From: Streptomyces seoulensis
GTDB lineage: Bacteria > Actinomycetota > Actinomycetes > Streptomycetales > Streptomycetaceae
Length of the DNA: 64,000 nucleotides
Assembly (NCBI RefSeq): GCF_004328625.1
Contig: NZ_CP032229.1
Coordinates: 124,001-188,000, forward strand
Direction: 5' to 3'
Shown here: in pieces, positions 9,295 through 24,862 of the stretch
How the letters are laid out: the number at the start of each line of letters is the position of its first letter
How positions within the stretch are numbered: position 1 is the first letter of the stretch
Made by a program: the position numbers and the translations under genes
Notes under the pieces: model-generated
Seen by the model: the letters and a program-made list of their open reading frames with translations, nothing else
What the model was told of the DNA's origin: nothing
Database searches by the model: none

Positions 9295-9411
9295 CTGCCC
9301 TCGGCACGGCGGGCCCGCGCGCTGCCGCCCCTTCGAGGTGCCTCTCGCGGCGGCAGCGGCTCCAATGGGCTTAGGGAACCACCCGAACGGCCGCCGGTGA
9401 GGAGCCCGCGT

Positions 9412-9867
9412 ATGACGAAAGCGATCAAACTGCCGACCGCTCTGCCACAGGCCCAGCGGGAACGGCTGATGGAGCTGGCCAAGGAGGTCTCCTTCCCGGA
9501 GGACACCCGTGTGTTCGAGGCGGGCGGCGTCGCCGACCGGTTCTGGGTGATCCGGTCGGGCGCCGTCTCCCTGGACCAGCAGGTGACCTCCCGGCAGTAC
9601 ATCACCGTGGCCACGCTCGGCGCCGGTGACCTGCTGGGCTGGTCCTGGCTCTTCCCGCCGTACGAGTGGGACTTCGGGGCGGTGGCGTTCAGCAACGTCC
9701 GCGCCTACGAGTTCGACGGGCCCTCCGTGCTCGCGCTGTGCGTGGAGGACCCGCTGCTCGGGCTGTCGCTGGTGCGCACGGTGGCCGAGATCCTGGCCCA
9801 CCGGCTGGAGACCACCCGCGGCAAGCTGATGGACCAGTACGCGATCCGACGGAGCGCCCCCCTGTAG
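9412..9867 (+). CDS. Cyclic-nucleotide-binding-fold (CRP-like) protein without DNA-binding domain
   Basis: A 151-residue protein consisting essentially of one cNMP-binding beta-roll: SFPEDTRVFEAGGVADRFWVIRSGAVSLDQQ near residues 24-60, then a GAGDLLGWSWLFPP stretch near 75. This takes the place of the usual phosphate-binding cassette and lacks its conserved RxA arginine, so cyclic nucleotide binding is doubtful. The C-terminal helix (VRTVAEILAHRLETTRGKLMDQYAIR) ends without the winged helix of true CRP regulators. ATG 9412 has GAGGAG-type upstream sequence (GTGAGGAGCC). The fold resembles the sensor domain of the histidine kinase at 23046. A role as a ligand- or redox-sensing adaptor is possible but unproven. 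Confidence 0.7.
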   Translation: MTKAIKLPTALPQAQRERLMELAKEVSFPEDTRVFEAGGVADRFWVIRSGAVSLDQQVTSRQYITVATLGAGDLLGWSWLFPPYEWDFGAVAFSNVRAYEFDGPSVLALCVEDPLLGLSLVRTVAEILAHRLETTRGKLMDQYAIRRSAPL

Positions 9868-16441: not shown

Positions 16442-18115
16442 TCAGCCGGTCTGCCGGGCCGCCGCCCTGCCCGCGGCGCGGCCGGAGAAGAGGCAGCCGC
16501 CGAGGAAGGTGCCCTCCAGGGCGTTGTAGCCGTGCACCCCTCCCCCGCCGAAGCCGGCCACCTCACCGGCCGCGTAGAGCCCGTCGACCGGGCTGCCGTC
16601 GAGGCCGAGGGCGCGGGAGTCGAGGTCGGTCTGGATGCCGCCCAGGGTCTTGCGGGTCAGCACCCGCAGCCGGACCCCGATCAGCGGACCCGCCTCGGGG
16701 TCGAGGACGCGGTGCGGGGCGGCGACCCGGCCGAGCCGGTCCCCGATGTAGCGGCGGGCGTTGCGGATGCCCTGGACCTGGGAGTCCTTGCTGTAGGGGT
16801 TGGCCATCTGGAGGTCGCGGGCCTCGATCTGGCGGCGCACCTCGGCCGGGTCGAGCAGGGCTTCGCCGGTGAGGCCGTTCATCTTGCCGACCAATTCCTC
16901 GATCGTGCCGGCGGTGACGAAGTCCGCGCCCTTGTCGAGGAACGCCTGCACCGGTCCCGGGGCGCCCTTGCCCAGCACCCGGTCGCGGAGCACGGCCTTG
17001 CGGTCCTTGGCGGTGATGTCCGGGTTCTGCTCCGAGCCGGAGAGCGCGAACTCCTTCTCGATGATCTTCCGGGTGAGGACGAACCAGGAGTGGTCGTGGC
17101 CCGCGATGTCCTCGGTGGTGCGCAGATGGCGCAGGGTGCTCAGCGTGTCGTAGCCGGGCAGGCAGGGGTCGGGCAGGCGGCGGCCGAGGGCGTCCAGCCA
17201 GACGGAGGACGGGCCGGGCAGGACGCGGATGCCGTGGCCGAGCCAGACGGGGTCCCAGTTGGCGAGGCCCTCGGTGTAGTGCCACATGCGGTCCCGGTTG
17301 ACCAGGCGCACCCCGGCCTCGGCGCTGATGTCGAGCATCCGGCCGTCGACGTAGGCGGGGACGCCGGTGACCATGTCGGCCGGGGGCGTGCCGAGCCGCT
17401 CGGGCCAGTAGCGGCGGACGATGTCGTGGTTCGCGCCGATGCCGCCGGTGGTGAGGACGACGGCCTGCGCGGTCAGCTCGAACTCCCCCGCCGTCTCCCT
17501 GCTGGAGGCGACACCGCGCGGCGAGTCGTCGGGGGCGAGCAGGGTGCCGCGTACGCCACGCGCGGTGGTGCCGTCGATGAGGAGTTCGTCGACGCGGTGC
17601 CGGTGGTGGAAGGTCAGCAGCCCGTCCCGCGCGGCCTGCCGGGCGTACCGCACGAAGGGCTCGACCACGCCGGTGCCGGTGCCCCAGGCGATGTGGAAGC
17701 GGGGTACGGAGTTGCCGTGGCCGTCGGCGCGCAGGTCGCCGCGCTCGGCCCAGCCGACGGTGGGCAGCAGCTCGATGCCGTGGCCGCGCAACCAGGACCG
17801 CTTCTCGCCGGCCGCGAACTCGACGTAGGCACGGGCCCAGCGCACCGCCCAGGAGTCCTCGTCGTCCAGGCGGTCGAAGCCGGCGCTGCCCCGCCAGTCG
17901 TTCCAGGCGAGGTCGAGGGAGTCCTTGACGCCGAGGCGGCGCTGTTCGGGCGAGTCGACCAGGAAGAGCCCGCCGAAGGACCAGAACGCCTGGCCGCCCA
18001 GGTTGGCGGCGTTCTCCTGGTCCAGCAGGGCCACCTTCCGGCCCCGGCTGGTGAGTTCGTGCGCCGCGACCAGGCCGGCCAGGCCCGCTCCCACGACTAT
18101 GACGTCCGCGTCCAT
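16442..18115 (-). CDS. FAD-binding dehydrogenase (KstD/fumarate-reductase-like)
   Basis: A 557-residue flavoprotein. The N-terminus DVIVVGAGLAGLVAAHEL binds FAD, LLDQENAANLGGQAFWSFGGL follows, and the C-terminus closes with AAGEVAGFGGGGVHGYNALEGTFLGGCLFSG. This matches the soluble fumarate reductase/3-ketosteroid-dehydrogenase superfamily and in particular its putative FAD-binding dehydrogenase group of about 550 residues. The substrate is unknown; no steroid catabolic genes are seen nearby. It is 36 bases downstream of a TetR gene on the same strand and probably co-transcribed and repressed by it. Start ATG 18115 is preceded by GAGGAC. Confidence 0.82.
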   Translation of the reverse strand: MDADVIVVGAGLAGLVAAHELTSRGRKVALLDQENAANLGGQAFWSFGGLFLVDSPEQRRLGVKDSLDLAWNDWRGSAGFDRLDDEDSWAVRWARAYVEFAAGEKRSWLRGHGIELLPTVGWAERGDLRADGHGNSVPRFHIAWGTGTGVVEPFVRYARQAARDGLLTFHHRHRVDELLIDGTTARGVRGTLLAPDDSPRGVASSRETAGEFELTAQAVVLTTGGIGANHDIVRRYWPERLGTPPADMVTGVPAYVDGRMLDISAEAGVRLVNRDRMWHYTEGLANWDPVWLGHGIRVLPGPSSVWLDALGRRLPDPCLPGYDTLSTLRHLRTTEDIAGHDHSWFVLTRKIIEKEFALSGSEQNPDITAKDRKAVLRDRVLGKGAPGPVQAFLDKGADFVTAGTIEELVGKMNGLTGEALLDPAEVRRQIEARDLQMANPYSKDSQVQGIRNARRYIGDRLGRVAAPHRVLDPEAGPLIGVRLRVLTRKTLGGIQTDLDSRALGLDGSPVDGLYAAGEVAGFGGGGVHGYNALEGTFLGGCLFSGRAAGRAAARQTG

Positions 18116-18151
18116 GGAGTCCTCGTCCTTCCTTCCAGGGTTCGTACAGGG

Positions 18152-18766
18152 TCATGCCGGCTCGCCGCCGCCGGACAGCAGGGGCGTGAGCAGGTGTTTC
18201 AGCCAGTCGCGGGCGGCGTCGACGTCCTTGTCCAGCAGGAGCTGGACGGTGACGCCGTCGTAGGCGGCGACGACCGCGCGGGCGGCGGCGTCCACCCCGC
18301 CGGGCGGGGTGGCGGTGGCCTCGGCCCGGCGCAGCCGGTCGGCGACGGCCTCGCGCAGCCGGGCCCGGTGGCGGAGCAGCGTCTCGGCGACCTCCGGGTC
18401 GCGGGCGGCGTGCACCAGGAAGTCGGTCTTCACCAGCAGCCAGTCCACGTCGAGGAGGAGTACCTCGGCGACCCGGTCCACGGAGGCGGCCACGTCCAGC
18501 GCGGGGCCGTCCTGGGCGAGCGCCTCGGCGACCTGGGAGGCGATGAGGTCGGCGCGCTCCTGGTAGAGGGCGAAGAACAGCTCGTCCAGCGTGGCGAAGT
18601 TCGAGTAGAAGGCTCCCCGGCTGTATCCGGCGGCCTCGCAGACCTCCTCGATGGAGACCCGCCCGAACCCCTTGGCCGCGAACACCGCGAAGGCGGCGGC
18701 CAGCAGCTCGGCCCGCGTACGCGCCCGCCGCTTGGTCACGCGCGGCGCCCTCTGGTCGGCCGTCAT
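18152..18766 (-). CDS. TetR-family regulator of the downstream FAD dehydrogenase
   Basis: A 204-residue TetR regulator. The DNA-binding domain is LLAAAFAVFAAKGFGRVSIEEVCEAAGYSRGAFYSNFATLDELF, about residues 20-62, followed by a variable ligand domain. ATG 18766 is favoured because GGAGG lies eight bases upstream. Two adjacent near-identical palindromes lie 19-52 bases upstream of the start, so it very likely represses its own operon with the FAD dehydrogenase. It may also affect the divergent AlkB-type gene. Confidence 0.88.
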   Translation of the reverse strand: MTADQRAPRVTKRRARTRAELLAAAFAVFAAKGFGRVSIEEVCEAAGYSRGAFYSNFATLDELFFALYQERADLIASQVAEALAQDGPALDVAASVDRVAEVLLLDVDWLLVKTDFLVHAARDPEVAETLLRHRARLREAVADRLRRAEATATPPGGVDAAARAVVAAYDGVTVQLLLDKDVDAARDWLKHLLTPLLSGGGEPA

Positions 18767-18784
18767 CACCCGCACCTCCGTCTT

Positions 18785-20324: not shown

Positions 20325-21209
20325 TCAGGCCGGGTCGGCGCCGGGCCGGTCCTGCGGGACGACGGCGACCGGGCTGCCCGCGTGGTGCAGCACGCCGTGC
20401 GCGACCGAGCCGATCCGGGCGCCGACCGCCGTACGGCGCGCGCGTCGGCCCACCACGAGGAGCTGGGCCCGCGTGGCCTGGGAGACCAGCACCTGCCCGG
20501 CGCTGCCCATCTCGATGTGCTCGGTGACCGGCACGCCGGGGAACCGCTCGCGCCAGGGCGCCAGCGCGTCGGCGAGCGCCCGCTTCTCGTACGGTTCGAG
20601 GCCGCCCGCCTCGTCCAGCAGCTTCAACGAGCCGGGGCTGTGGGCGAAGACGGGCGGCAGGGTCCAGGCGCGCACCGCGCGGAGGGTCGCGCCGCGGGCG
20701 GCCGCCGTCTCGAAGGCGAAGCGCAGCGCGGCGGCGCTGTCCTCCGGGGTGCCGTGCTGGCCGACGACGATCTCCCGTCCGGCGGACTCGGCCTCCGGGC
20801 GGTCCCCGGCGCGCACCAGGATCACCGGCCGGGTGGTCTCCGCGACGACCCGGAGGCCGACCGAGCCGAGCAGGAAGCCGACCACCGCCCCGTGCCCGCG
20901 GGTGCCGAGGACCAGTTCCTCGGCGTCCGCGCCGGCCGCGAGCAGCGCGTCCACCGCGTCGTCCTCGGTCAGTTCCAGCGTCGCGTGCAGGCCGGGGTGC
21001 CGTTCGGTGAGGGAGCCGACAGCGCGGCCGATGCCCTCCTCGGCCCAGGCCCGCTGGGTGTCCCGGTCGGCCGGGAGTTCGCCGATCTCCTCCCAGGCGT
21101 GCACCACGCGCAGTGGCAGCCCCCGGCGTACGGCCTCGCGGGCCGCCCAGTCCAGCGCCGCCAGGCTTTCGTCGGTACCGTCCACCCCTGCCGTGATCGG
21201 GCGTGTCAT
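20325..21209 (-). CDS. Universal stress protein with two Usp domains
   Basis: A 294-residue tandem UspA-domain protein. Each half ends with an ATP-binding loop: VLGTRGHGAVVGFLLGSVGL near residue 113, and VVGRRARRTAVGARIGSVAHGVLHHAGSPVAVVP at the C-terminus. The N-terminal MTRPITAGVDGTDESLAALDWA is canonical. Such tandem Usp proteins accompany hypoxia, dormancy or energy-stress regulons in actinobacteria. It is divergent from the receiver-flavoprotein operon, 163 bases away, which suggests related regulation. ATG 21209 has GAGGAGG upstream. Confidence 0.88.
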   Translation of the reverse strand: MTRPITAGVDGTDESLAALDWAAREAVRRGLPLRVVHAWEEIGELPADRDTQRAWAEEGIGRAVGSLTERHPGLHATLELTEDDAVDALLAAGADAEELVLGTRGHGAVVGFLLGSVGLRVVAETTRPVILVRAGDRPEAESAGREIVVGQHGTPEDSAAALRFAFETAAARGATLRAVRAWTLPPVFAHSPGSLKLLDEAGGLEPYEKRALADALAPWRERFPGVPVTEHIEMGSAGQVLVSQATRAQLLVVGRRARRTAVGARIGSVAHGVLHHAGSPVAVVPQDRPGADPA

Positions 21210-21372: not shown

Positions 21373-23049
21373 ATGGCAGAACCGACCGACGCGGCCCGGA
21401 CCGTCCTGCTGACCGTGGACGACGATCCGGGCGTGTCCCGCGCGGTCGCCCGCGATCTGCGGCGCCGCTACGGCGCCGCGTACCGCGTGGTGCGCGCCGA
21501 GTCCGGTCGGTCGGCGCTGGAGGCGCTGCGCGAGCTGAAGCTGCGCGGCGACTCCGTGGCGGTGCTGCTGGCGGACTACCGGATGCCGGTGATGAACGGC
21601 ATCGAGTTCCTGGAACGCGCGATGGACGTCTACCCGGGCGCGCGGCGGGTGCTGCTGACGGCGTACGCGGACACCGGGGCGGCGATCGACGCGATCAACG
21701 TGGTGGATCTGGACCACTACCTGCTCAAGCCCTGGGACCCGCCGGAGGAGAAGCTGTACCCGGTGGTCGACGACCTGCTGGCGGCCTGGCGGGCCGGGGA
21801 CCACCGGCCGGTGCCGTTCATGAAGGTGGTGGGCCACCGCTGGTCGGCGCGGTCTTCGGAGGTGCGGGAGTTCCTGGCCCGCAACCAGGTGCCCTACCGC
21901 TGGTACTCGGTGGAGGAGCCCGAGGGCCGGCGCCTGCTGGCGGCGGCCGGGCAGGACGGGCTGCGGCTGCCCCTGGTGATCACCCCGGACGGCGGGGTGC
22001 TGGTCGAGCCCGAGGCTCCGGAGCTGGCGGCCCGGGTCGGTCTGGCGACGACCCCGACGGCCGACTTCTACGACCTCGTGGTGATCGGCGGCGGCCCGGC
22101 CGGGCTGGGCTCGGCGGTGTACGGGGCGTCGGAGGGCCTGCGCACGGTCCTGGTGGAGCGCTCGGCCACGGGCGGCCAGGCCGGGCAGAGCTCCCGTATC
22201 GAGAACTACCTCGGCTTCCCCGACGGCGTCTCCGGCGCCCAGCTCACCGACCGCGCCCGCCGCCAGGCGACCCGGTTCGGCGCGGAGATCCTCACCGCGC
22301 GCGAGGTGACGGGACTGGAGGTCAACGGCGCGGCGCGGGTCGTCCGGTTCGCGGACGGCTCGGCGATCGGCGCGCACAGCGTGATCCTGGCGACCGGGGT
22401 GCAGTACCGGCGGCTGACCGCCGAGGGCTGTGCCGGGCTGACCGGCTGCGGGGTGTTCTACGGGTCGGCGCTGACCGAGGCGCCGTCCTGCCAGGGGCAC
22501 GACGTGTTCATCGTGGGCGGCGCCAACTCGGCCGGGCAGGCGGCGATGTACCTGTCCCGGTTCGCCAAGTCGGTGACGCTGCTGGTGCGCGGGCCCGACC
22601 TGTCGGCGTCGATGTCGCACTATCTGGTCCAGCAGATCACCGAGGCCCCGAACATCACGGTGCGCGCCCGCACGGAGGTGGAGGCGGCGCACGGCTCGGA
22701 CCGGCTGGAGCGGCTGACCCTGCGCCGGGTGGACACCGGTGAGGCGGAGCAGGCCGAGGCGCAGTGGATGTTCGTGTTCATCGGCGCCGCTCCGCTGACC
22801 GGCTGGCTGGACGGGACCGTGCGCCGGGACGGGCGGGGGTTCATCCTGGCCGGCCCGGATCTGACCGTGGACGGGGAACTGCCGGAGGACTGGGATCTGG
22901 ACCGGCCCCCGTACCACCTGGAGACCAGCGTGCCGGGCGTGTTCGTGGCGGGCGACGCGCGCGCCGAGTCGGCCAAGCGGGTCGCGTCCGCCGTAGGAGA
23001 GGGAGCCATGGCCGTGATGCTCGTCCACCGTTATCTGGAGCAGTCGTGA
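21373..23049 (+). CDS. Response-regulator receiver fused to thioredoxin-reductase-like flavoprotein (CxxC absent)
   Basis: A 558-residue fusion. Residues 10-130 are a receiver domain with acidic D17/D18, phospho-acceptor D68 (ADYRMP), T96 and K119 all present. Residues about 145-225 look like a thioredoxin/glutaredoxin-type fold. From residue 234 a thioredoxin-reductase-like module follows: FAD motif VVIGGGPAGLGSAVYG, TGGQAG, ENYLGFP, second dinucleotide fold FIVGGANSAGQAA and terminal GVFVAGDARAESAKR. Where thioredoxin reductases have the catalytic CxxC, this protein reads YGSALTEA, so classic disulfide reduction is not expected. The next gene, a histidine kinase, overlaps its stop codon. 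It probably couples NADPH/flavin redox state with phosphorelay signalling. Confidence 0.88.
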   Translation: MAEPTDAARTVLLTVDDDPGVSRAVARDLRRRYGAAYRVVRAESGRSALEALRELKLRGDSVAVLLADYRMPVMNGIEFLERAMDVYPGARRVLLTAYADTGAAIDAINVVDLDHYLLKPWDPPEEKLYPVVDDLLAAWRAGDHRPVPFMKVVGHRWSARSSEVREFLARNQVPYRWYSVEEPEGRRLLAAAGQDGLRLPLVITPDGGVLVEPEAPELAARVGLATTPTADFYDLVVIGGGPAGLGSAVYGASEGLRTVLVERSATGGQAGQSSRIENYLGFPDGVSGAQLTDRARRQATRFGAEILTAREVTGLEVNGAARVVRFADGSAIGAHSVILATGVQYRRLTAEGCAGLTGCGVFYGSALTEAPSCQGHDVFIVGGANSAGQAAMYLSRFAKSVTLLVRGPDLSASMSHYLVQQITEAPNITVRARTEVEAAHGSDRLERLTLRRVDTGEAEQAEAQWMFVFIGAAPLTGWLDGTVRRDGRGFILAGPDLTVDGELPEDWDLDRPPYHLETSVPGVFVAGDARAESAKRVASAVGEGAMAVMLVHRYLEQS

Positions 23050-24515
23050 GCGGGCGGCCGCTGCCGTGCAGCCCCGGCGAGATCGGCACGCTGTTCCTCT
23101 TCGAGCGGCTGTCACCCGAGCAGGTGGGACGGCTGTGCCGGGACGGCCGGGTGGAGCAGTTCGAGCCGGGCCCGGTGTACACCGAGGGTGACCCGGCGAC
23201 CTGCTTCTACGTGCTGATCGAGGGCGCCGTCGTGCTCTCCCGGCGGATCGGCGCCGAGGACGTCGAGGTGTCCCGGACCAGCCAGCGCGGGGTGTACGGC
23301 GGCGCCATGCAGGCGTATCTCGGGGACCGGGTGCGGCAGTTGTACAACAACTCGATGCGGGTGACGGAGCCGACGCGGTTCTTCGTGCTGCCCGCGTCCG
23401 TGTTCGCGGAGGTGATGCGGGCCTGGTTCCCGATGGCGGTGCATCTGCTGGAGGGGCTGTTCTTCGGCTCCAAGAGCACGCAGGCGGCCATCGGGCAGCG
23501 CGAACGGCTGCTGGCGCTGGGCTCGTTGTCGGCCGGGCTCACCCATGAGCTGAACAATCCGGCGGCGGCCGCGGTGCGGGCCACCTCCACCCTGCGGGAG
23601 CGGGTGGCCCGGATGCGGCACAAGCTGGGGGTGATCGCGGAGGGGCCGTTCTCCCGTGACGCGCTGGCGAGTCTGATCGAGATCCAGGAGCGCACCGCCG
23701 AGCGGGTCGCCAAGGCACCCGTGCTCGGCCCACTGGAGGCGGCCGACCGCGAGGACGCGCTCGCGGACTGGCTGACCGACCACGGCATCGAGGACGGCTG
23801 GCGGCTCGCCCCGGTGTTCGTGCAGGCGGGCCTGGACGCCGACTGGCTGGAGCGGGTGGCCGCCACGGTGGACCAGGAGATCCTGGGCGGCGCGGTGGGC
23901 TGGCTCAACTACACCATCGAGACCGAGCTGTTGATGAACGAGATCGAGGACGCCACCACCCGCGTCTCCCAACTCGTCGACGCCGCCAAGCAGTACACCC
24001 AGCTGGACCGGGCCCCGTTCCGCGTGGTGGACGTGCACGAACTCCTCGACAGCACCCTGCTGATGCTCTCCGGCAAACTCGGCCCGCACATCGAGGTGGT
24101 GCGCGCCTACGACCGTACGCTGCCCTCGCTGCCGGGCTATCCGGCGGAGCTGAACCAGGTGTGGACCAACCTGATCGACAACGCGGTGTCCGCGATGACC
24201 GAGGACGGCGGCGGAGGCACGCTGACCGTGCGGACGGCGCGGGACGGGCGACTGGCCCTGGTGGAGTTCGCGGACACCGGGCCCGGGGTGCCCCCGGAGA
24301 TCCGGGAGCAGATCTTCGACCCGTTCTTCACCACCAAGCCGGTCGGCGCGGGCACCGGTCTCGGGCTGGACATCTCCCGGCGGATCGTCGTCGACAAGCA
24401 CCACGGCACCCTGCGGCTGGAGTCCGCCCCCGGCGACACCCGCTTCCAGGTCCGCCTGCCCCTGACCGCGGACACCCCGTCCGGCGAGACCCCGAGAGCC
24501 CAGGAGGGCGCATGA
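23046..24515 (+). CDS. Sensor histidine kinase with N-terminal CRP-like (cNMP-binding) domain
   Basis: A 489-residue soluble kinase. Residues about 20-140 form a cNMP-binding-type beta-roll (GPVYTEGDPATCFYVLIEGAVVLSRR). A helical segment then leads to the H-box GSLSAGLTHELNNPAAAA with phospho-histidine H167. The ATPase domain has NQVWTNLIDNAVSAM (N-box), DTGPGVP (G1), FDPFFTTKP (F-box) and GTGLGLDIS (G2). No membrane segment is seen. GTG 23046 overlaps the previous TGA by two bases, implying translational coupling with the receiver-flavoprotein, its likely phosphotransfer partner. Confidence 0.9.
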   Translation: MSGRPLPCSPGEIGTLFLFERLSPEQVGRLCRDGRVEQFEPGPVYTEGDPATCFYVLIEGAVVLSRRIGAEDVEVSRTSQRGVYGGAMQAYLGDRVRQLYNNSMRVTEPTRFFVLPASVFAEVMRAWFPMAVHLLEGLFFGSKSTQAAIGQRERLLALGSLSAGLTHELNNPAAAAVRATSTLRERVARMRHKLGVIAEGPFSRDALASLIEIQERTAERVAKAPVLGPLEAADREDALADWLTDHGIEDGWRLAPVFVQAGLDADWLERVAATVDQEILGGAVGWLNYTIETELLMNEIEDATTRVSQLVDAAKQYTQLDRAPFRVVDVHELLDSTLLMLSGKLGPHIEVVRAYDRTLPSLPGYPAELNQVWTNLIDNAVSAMTEDGGGGTLTVRTARDGRLALVEFADTGPGVPPEIREQIFDPFFTTKPVGAGTGLGLDISRRIVVDKHHGTLRLESAPGDTRFQVRLPLTADTPSGETPRAQEGA

Positions 24516-24862
24516 GTGAGGACAGCCCGATCGATCCGTCCGTGCCGCCGAGCGGTACGGGGTGCGTGGAGTGCGAGCAGGCGGGCAGCTGGTGGTTCCA
24601 CTTGCGCCGCTGCGCGCGGTGCGGGCACATCGGGTGCTGTGACGACTCGCTGGGCAAGCACGCCACCGCCCACTACCGGGACACCGGCCATCCGGTGCTG
24701 CGCAGCTTCGAGCCCGGCGAGGACTGGTTCTGGAACTACGCGACGAAGGAACTGTACGAGTCCGGCCCCGCCCTTGCCCCGCCCGAGAGCCACCCCGCCG
24801 ACCAGCCGGTACCGGGCCCGGCCGGACGGGTCCCGGCCGACTGGACCCAGTTGCTGAGCTGA
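24512..24862 (+). CDS. UBP-type zinc-finger protein
   Basis: A 116-residue protein dominated by a UBP (ZnF-UBP) domain. Visible ligands are CVEC near residue 18, CARCGHIGCC near 34, KHATAHYRDTGH near 49. The eukaryotic family binds the free C-terminus of ubiquitin; bacteria lack ubiquitin, so the ligand is unknown. ATG 24512 overlaps the kinase stop (ATGA), with AGGAGG upstream, so it is the third gene of a translationally coupled operon. The proline-rich C-terminal 30 residues look disordered. Confidence 0.88.
   Translation: MSEDSPIDPSVPPSGTGCVECEQAGSWWFHLRRCARCGHIGCCDDSLGKHATAHYRDTGHPVLRSFEPGEDWFWNYATKELYESGPALAPPESHPADQPVPGPAGRVPADWTQLLS

Follow-up and report, generated by a model that had tools for sequence, protein, structure and literature searches.

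What does a phosphorylatable receiver domain control when it is fused to a flavin redox module, with a histidine kinase and a ubiquitin-type zinc finger encoded alongside? The question is raised by three adjacent genes of Streptomyces seoulensis, which encode a receiver-flavoprotein (FLAV), a CRP-fold histidine kinase (KIN) and a zinc-finger protein (UBP), and which lie within the 64,000-nucleotide stretch of DNA analysed here (NZ_CP032229.1, positions 124,001 to 188,000; hereafter, the window). The three genes form one real, ancient unit that is kept across several phyla, and we would put at about 0.55 the probability that they constitute a self-contained two-component system with an enzyme as its output. 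A first-pass annotation of this DNA had described GTGA and ATGA overlaps at the FLAV/KIN and KIN/UBP junctions, respectively; both are confirmed by the gene coordinates (Table 1), and Pfam bears out its domain calls for all three products.

Co-occurrence across genomes

Two sets of genomes were searched, comprising 246 from the Actinomycetota and 148 from the phylum of Dyadobacter. Within the former, relatives of FLAV (receiver, CRP-fold and glutaredoxin (Grx) types combined) are present in 60 genomes, zf-UBP fingers in 56, and the kinase, at 300 bits or above, in 29 (42 matches). All 29 kinase-bearing genomes also encode FLAV (7.1 expected), invariably of the receiver type. Viewed from the other side, receiver-type FLAV of the group with intact receivers occurs in 31 of the 246 genomes, of which 29 have the kinase at 300 bits or above; in the remaining two (G183 and G221), kinase pieces run off the contig ends. 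The list of intact-receiver genomes was drawn up by hand and includes G042, where the contig starts after D68 and the aspartate is not visible; in G141 (L251), the flavoprotein is encoded in interrupted frames next to a fragment of the kinase, its receiver pieces keeping the catalytic residues, and the kinase of G252 is matched in part, over positions 96-468. By hand count, 39 of the 42 Actinomycetota kinase matches lie within 7 kb of FLAV. In the Dyadobacter phylum, receiver-type FLAV and the kinase each occur in 20 genomes, and these are the identical 20. Judged by genome content, a dedicated partnership between KIN and FLAV is supported; the co-conservation check that the first-pass annotation had named was run and not failed.

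The finger follows the same trend. FLAV and UBP occur together in 40 of the 246 Actinomycetota genomes against 13.7 expected (Fisher 2e-18, a test that, like those below, carries genome-size and lineage effects). In the Dyadobacter phylum, 16 genomes have a finger above the cut-off and 23 have a FLAV relative of any type; the two sets share 14 genomes (2.5 expected; Fisher 6e-12). By a hand count from coordinates, 12 of the 16 fingers are no more than 5 kb away from FLAV or KIN. Among the matches listed, named loci also come from records of Cyanobacteria, Chloroflexi, Acidobacteria, Deltaproteobacteria, Gemmatimonadetes, Verrucomicrobia and Chlorobi (phyla informally noted); the 80 named loci, being the top-scoring matches of a longer scan, are not a random sample.

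Receiver integrity and the kinase

Receiver integrity tracks the presence of the kinase. A receiver was scored as intact if it has Asp or Glu at position 16, together with D17, D68 and K119 (T96 was not part of the score), and the comparison took in the 115 receiver-type loci whose flanks reach 1.5 kb or more on both sides. KIN lies within 3.5 kb at 83 of 95 intact-receiver loci versus 0 of 20 degenerate-receiver loci. Nine of the 12 intact exceptions are the named genomes L104, L109, L116, L117, L118, L134, L145, L147 and L173, where a kinase match of 413-600 bits sits on a contig other than that of the receiver-type FLAV; the remaining three (L068, L081 and L193) group in the tree with the degenerate receivers, in a single clade of 23 rows (99/98). 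One further degenerate receiver, L136, stands apart from this clade, and its genome shows only a partial, generic-looking kinase match (209 bits over 267-470). Of 14 named loci where no complete KIN lies near FLAV, 10 were covered by the whole-genome kinase search; the flanks of L095, L107, L129 and L152 are short, and in L095, L129 and L152, a kinase piece stands at the contig end. The Rubrobacteraceae locus L120 was dropped from these counts, being the same record stretch as L048.

The flavoprotein

Pfam identifies Response_reg (13-124, 50 bits) and Pyr_redox_2 (233-544, 106 bits) in FLAV. In family alignments, the receiver (about 10-125) has D16, D17, D68, T96 and K119: the acidic pair, the phospho-acceptor aspartate D68 and the other residues of a two-component receiver are all there. 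D68, and H167 of the kinase, both named in the first-pass annotation as the phosphotransfer pair, are conserved positions of their families. A middle domain (about 148-225), which that annotation had overlooked along with a hairpin insert in KIN (204-274), is a degenerate glutaredoxin-like domain, with Ser158 and Ser161 where Grx has CPxC; its homology is seen in the relative L187, a match to PF00462 whose alignment with the FLAV profile extends through this domain, and the structure model of FLAV has a beta-alpha-beta order across 150-221. Residues 230-556 form a module like that of low-Mr thioredoxin reductase (TrxR), for binding FAD and NAD(P)H, in which GVFYGSALTEA (360-370) replaces the CxxC motif. 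VIA structure matches, mainly over 229-558, bear out the FAD/NAD(P)H fold of the model; among PDB sequence matches (the best 60 of 125), none has a best-aligned stretch that extends over receiver and reductase together.

FLAV retains the Rossmann motif for NAD(P)H binding, whereas none of the 152 REC- or CNB-type rows that could be read at the TrxR site has a CxxC, and the Grx cysteines are mostly substituted across the family, often with Ser. By sequence, with both CxxC motifs gone, FLAV is not a working thiol reductase; the FAD/NADPH module proposed in the first pass stands as a fold. FLAV differs from low-Mr thioredoxin reductase and AhpF both in having GVFYGSALTEA instead of CxxC and in the receiver placed in front; moreover, the HRR...R stretch of TrxB, which has a role in NADPH binding, is reduced to a single Arg. 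Active-looking relatives are the glutaredoxin-TrxR fusions L187-L192 of Actinomycetota, which align with FLAV through the middle domain and the TrxR module, and which keep CPDC (Grx) and CATC (TrxR) and have neither receiver nor CRP fold.

A sister form bears on the direction of signalling. Ten loci encode CRP-fold-Grx-TrxR proteins, and in a tree drawn with a midpoint root, these make a single clade (98/90) within the CxxC-less flavoproteins (100/100), to which FLAV also belongs. Pfam confirms cNMP_binding in the flavoproteins of L093, L176, L178 and L185, the first of which (45 bits) is encoded in the window's own genome. These proteins (L093, L176-L178, L180 and others) are one-component forms, in which the CRP fold is directly fused and no subfamily kinase adjoins, whereas FLAV has a receiver and KIN. 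As one form carries the CRP fold on its kinase and the other carries it directly on its flavoprotein, the flavoprotein would, most simply, be the output in both, and the signal probably passes from CRP fold to kinase, to receiver, to flavoprotein. The first-pass annotation had suggested phosphorelay control of, or by, a flavin reaction; the CRP-fold-fused sister clade favours 'of' over 'by'.

The kinase

KIN matches cNMP_binding (44-125, 29 bits; cut-off 27.5) and HATPase_c (366-474, 87 bits) in Pfam; there is no match to Pfam HisKA, which is consistent with a hairpin insertion. H167 (in HELNNP) and N379 are invariant in a 27-row alignment. An AlphaFold model built with these 27 rows (pLDDT 85, pTM 0.46) comprises a CRP/cNMP fold (10-126), an unbroken helix of 72 residues (128-199) bearing H167, a four-helix insert (204-274), the second hairpin helix (277-321) and then the ATPase domain. 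The insert has family-conserved positions (L230, E236, L243, W252, P256, A261 and G262); Foldseek and VIA matches to the model are histidine kinases, and are taken up by the kinase core, not the insert.

Cyclic-nucleotide domains bind phosphate through a cassette of the type GE..., R.A. The canonical cassette is absent from the CRP fold of KIN, where the window sequence reads YGGAMQAYLGDRVRQLYNNSMRV, and it is substituted in most relatives too, a crude canonical pattern being found in 11 of 104 kinases (at least one of the 11 doubtful). A canonical cyclic-nucleotide ligand was accordingly rejected for the window's KIN on the cassette sequence; the cyclic-nucleotide-type fold proposed in the first pass stands, by domain match and model, without the canonical cassette. 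Separately, an adenylate/guanylate cyclase recurs as a neighbour in L057, L060, L064 and L105 (by Pfam in L064, by cluster in the others), and the kinases of L060 and L064 retain the canonical cassette; cyclic-nucleotide input is possible at such loci.

The zinc finger and its linkage

UBP contains zf-UBP (18-80, 49 bits), with putative zinc ligands C18, C21, C34, C37, C42, C43, H50, H54 and H60 from the alignment; of its 15 rows, two of which are parts of a single gene in different frames, nearly all share the Cys positions and most share the His positions. Its closest structures are a bacterial protein of the same finger subfamily, PDB 2ida ('Hypothetical protein'; E 3.6e-25), followed by USP5 (E about 2e-5). 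Trp28 aligns with the pocket tryptophan of USP5, and His39 (in CGHxGCC) occupies the column of the USP5 arginine that contacts the C-terminal carboxylate of ubiquitin. The ubiquitin-binding-type finger of the first-pass annotation thus holds as a zf-UBP fold, and not as regards the ubiquitin-contacting arginine. In another Streptomyces locus (L034, G023, about 9345-9693), the finger gene lies in two reading frames, through either a frameshift or an assembly error.

The finger is linked to FLAV and KIN strongly, not always, and in varying order. FLAV-KIN-UBP is found in Streptomyces and relatives (in L037 and L053, by alignment) and in the cyanobacterial L132, which has a short kinase frame; KIN-FLAV-UBP in ten Bacteroidota loci; UBP-KIN-FLAV in L151 and L155; and UBP-FLAV-KIN in L062. 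L101, L112, L125 and L141 have divergent arrangements, and L059 encodes a KIN-UBP fusion, a single reading frame with cNMP_binding, HATPase_c and zf-UBP. UBP also adjoins FLAV in the absence of a neighbouring kinase (L085, L147, L176 and L177).

A second kind of neighbour of the finger emerges from the Actinomycetota set: 15 of its 75 fingers are no more than 5 kb from FLAV (0.24 expected), and an equal number, 15, are that close to a Na+/H+ exchanger belonging to a single family (0.15 expected), where the expected counts presume random placement. L203, L223, L224 and L225 are fusions of Na_H_Exchanger with zf-UBP, and at L125, a fused Na_H_Exchanger, TrkA_N and zf-UBP gene is divergent from FLAV-KIN. 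The cluster of G195 combines FLAV and three kinases with the finger, the exchanger, a DUF924 gene and a gene with a diadenylate-cyclase domain (DAC). Moreover, the window's genome has another finger gene (L175; G000:C1, about 4193827-4195714), divergent from a Na+/H+ exchanger 176 bases away. Finger/exchanger pairs no more than 180 bases apart are also seen in other Streptomyces genomes, for instance G023, G107, G128, G161, G182 and G193.

Proposed mechanism and alternatives

As a self-contained two-component system, the unit would work as follows. KIN, with the CRP fold as its input, would autophosphorylate on H167, as its family membership suggests, and would very probably hand the phosphate to D68 of its partner FLAV (the pairing is taken from genome content, the chemistry is extrapolated). 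The phospho-receiver might then repack on the Grx-like linker and gate electron flow from NAD(P)H through FAD to an acceptor, a step for which we see the odds as slightly favourable; because both redox CxxC motifs have been lost, this acceptor would be other than a protein disulphide. More tentatively, and with the odds tilted against it, UBP may act as a docking adaptor that ties FLAV to its clients, including Na+/H+ or K+/H+ exchangers. This docking role, in which an antiporter would sometimes be the site, is a guess drawn from the loci in which UBP stands beside FLAV with no kinase adjoining and from the exchanger linkage and fusions. Taken whole, it is unlikely that a phosphorelay-gated, disulphide-free flavoenzyme controls membrane cation/proton antiporters via the UBP finger, coupling electron flow to ion homeostasis; the CRP-fold flavoproteins would then be its one-component sister class, and docking would be what the 'ubiquitin' finger does in prokaryotes.

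A number of points weigh against this account. Up to 5 to 10 first-look candidates were scored per genome, which makes absences conditional, and as the genomes are also related, the Fisher p-values are indications only; for the receiver-kinase correlation, they are overstated, since it rests on two losses and not on twenty. The finger is within 4.5 kb at only 31 of the 95 intact loci, many loci being FLAV and KIN alone, and Streptomyces L167 shows no UBP in its 6 kb flanks; as most FLAV-KIN loci have no adjoining UBP, the finger would be optional or encoded elsewhere. Furthermore, an exchanger lies within 15 kb of FLAV in only 4 matches across the 246 genomes, all of them in three genomes of one family, and FLAV otherwise clusters with an antiporter only in L125 and L151 among the named loci.

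The chief competitor reverses the flow of information: FLAV would sense the NAD(P)H/FAD state, its receiver serving as docking site or phosphate sink, and the FAD state would set the kinase/phosphatase balance of KIN, with the output elsewhere. A flavin left with no obvious substrate after CxxC loss, beside an intact Rossmann motif, would suit such a sensor, and redox-controlled kinases are known in general; however, the CRP-fold-fused clade keeps the flavin module, pointing to the flavoprotein as the common output, and the 39 of 42 kinase matches that adjoin FLAV share no other receiver, so that we think a redox sensor improbable. We attach appreciably less weight to the idea that the system still acts on thiols, be they low-molecular-weight ones or the cysteines of the finger, the part of CxxC having passed to new cysteines or to external carriers. 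Its TrxR and Grx ancestry would suggest this, as would the egtB-type (FGE-sulfatase + DinB_2) and egtD-type (Methyltransf_33) genes beside the unit in L122, L124 and L142, and the egtD-type gene adjoining L139, which presumably indicate a link to ergothioneine; but these neighbours are seen in those Bacteroidota loci only, and, as described above, CxxC is absent at the TrxR site from all 152 rows read and the Grx cysteines are mostly substituted.

It would be more surprising still if the finger read a ubiquitin- or Pup-like C-terminus and coupled the kinase to proteolysis: the fold, the matches to 2ida and USP5, and Trp28 at the pocket position speak for such a role, whereas His39 replaces the carboxylate-contacting arginine, and the unit occurs in the Dyadobacter phylum, where Pup is not expected. 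Barely credible, finally, is an ordinary fused response regulator/thioredoxin-disulfide reductase, the name used in some records, which is contradicted by the missing CxxC and by a TIGR01292 score of 209 bits, well short of the cut-off at 343; the same genome encodes a separate TrxB, with CATCDG, that exceeds this cut-off at 399 bits.

The Kef K+/H+ antiporters with KefF offer an analogy of function, KefF being a flavoprotein attached to a cation/proton antiporter; KefF has another fold, and for FLAV-KIN-UBP, only the linkage of finger and antiporter is seen. Response regulators with a redox enzyme as output are, to our knowledge, little studied. In print, a REC-TrxR domain fusion is mentioned in passing for two organisms from Heimdallarchaeota, with an output architecture like that of FLAV; that passing mention includes no kinase partner, zinc finger, CxxC loss or Grx-like linker (PMC5847659). 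Literature searches, which did not extend to most subscription papers, found no publication on the three-gene unit. Kept across several phyla in changing order, the unit comes with natural controls, namely decayed receivers without kinase and a one-component version, and it provides an entry point to two questions: the role of CxxC-less TrxR-like flavoproteins, and why bacteria retain UBP zinc fingers. If the antiporter reading is true, there would be a whole class of bacterial two-component systems with electron flow as output.

Locus layout and neighbouring genes

Table 1. Genes of the unit and the divergent neighbour (window coordinates)
Feature	Position	Strand	Details
FLAV	21373..23049	+	558 amino acids; ATG 21373, TGA 23047-23049
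KIN	23046..24515	+	489 amino acids; GTG 23046, TGA 24513-24515
UBP	24512..24862	+	116 amino acids; ATG 24512, stop ends 24862
Tandem universal stress protein (Usp)	about 20325-21209	-	Pfam 143 bits; divergent from FLAV

The closest named records to FLAV are from S. griseoluteus (96-97% identity). Gene overlap is not restricted to the window, but recurs in other FLAV/KIN pairs: among 87 same-strand pairs no more than 400 bases apart, with genes predicted by a simple purpose-made gene caller, 33 overlap and 61 have a gap of 30 bases or fewer. The first-pass annotation had also placed a universal stress protein divergent from the operon; its tandem nature and position are correct, whereas membership of a conserved unit was rejected, as the gene adjoins FLAV in only three of seven other Streptomyces loci (L034, L035 and L037) and, with a weak match of 31 bits, lies near FLAV in a Rubrobacteraceae locus.

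Neighbours were surveyed as 326 proteins around 90 loci, excluding six near-duplicate Streptomyces loci and L120, and the Pfam scan covered 286 of them (proteins above 1000 amino acids and some others were omitted). No general conserved outside neighbour was found among these 286, the recurrent families being lineage-bound. The top families were, of 140, luciferase-like monooxygenases (7), then DUF924, Guanylate_cyc and DAC (4 each), and, of 146, ABC transporters and response regulators (6 each), DinB_2 and HATPase_c (5 each) and Methyltransf_33 (4). In L047, L048, L049 and L050, two or three tandem subfamily kinases come after FLAV, followed by DAC and DUF924 genes. Elsewhere in the window, at 16442-18775, a large open reading frame resembling an FAD-binding dehydrogenase lies next to a TetR-like one, as judged by eye.

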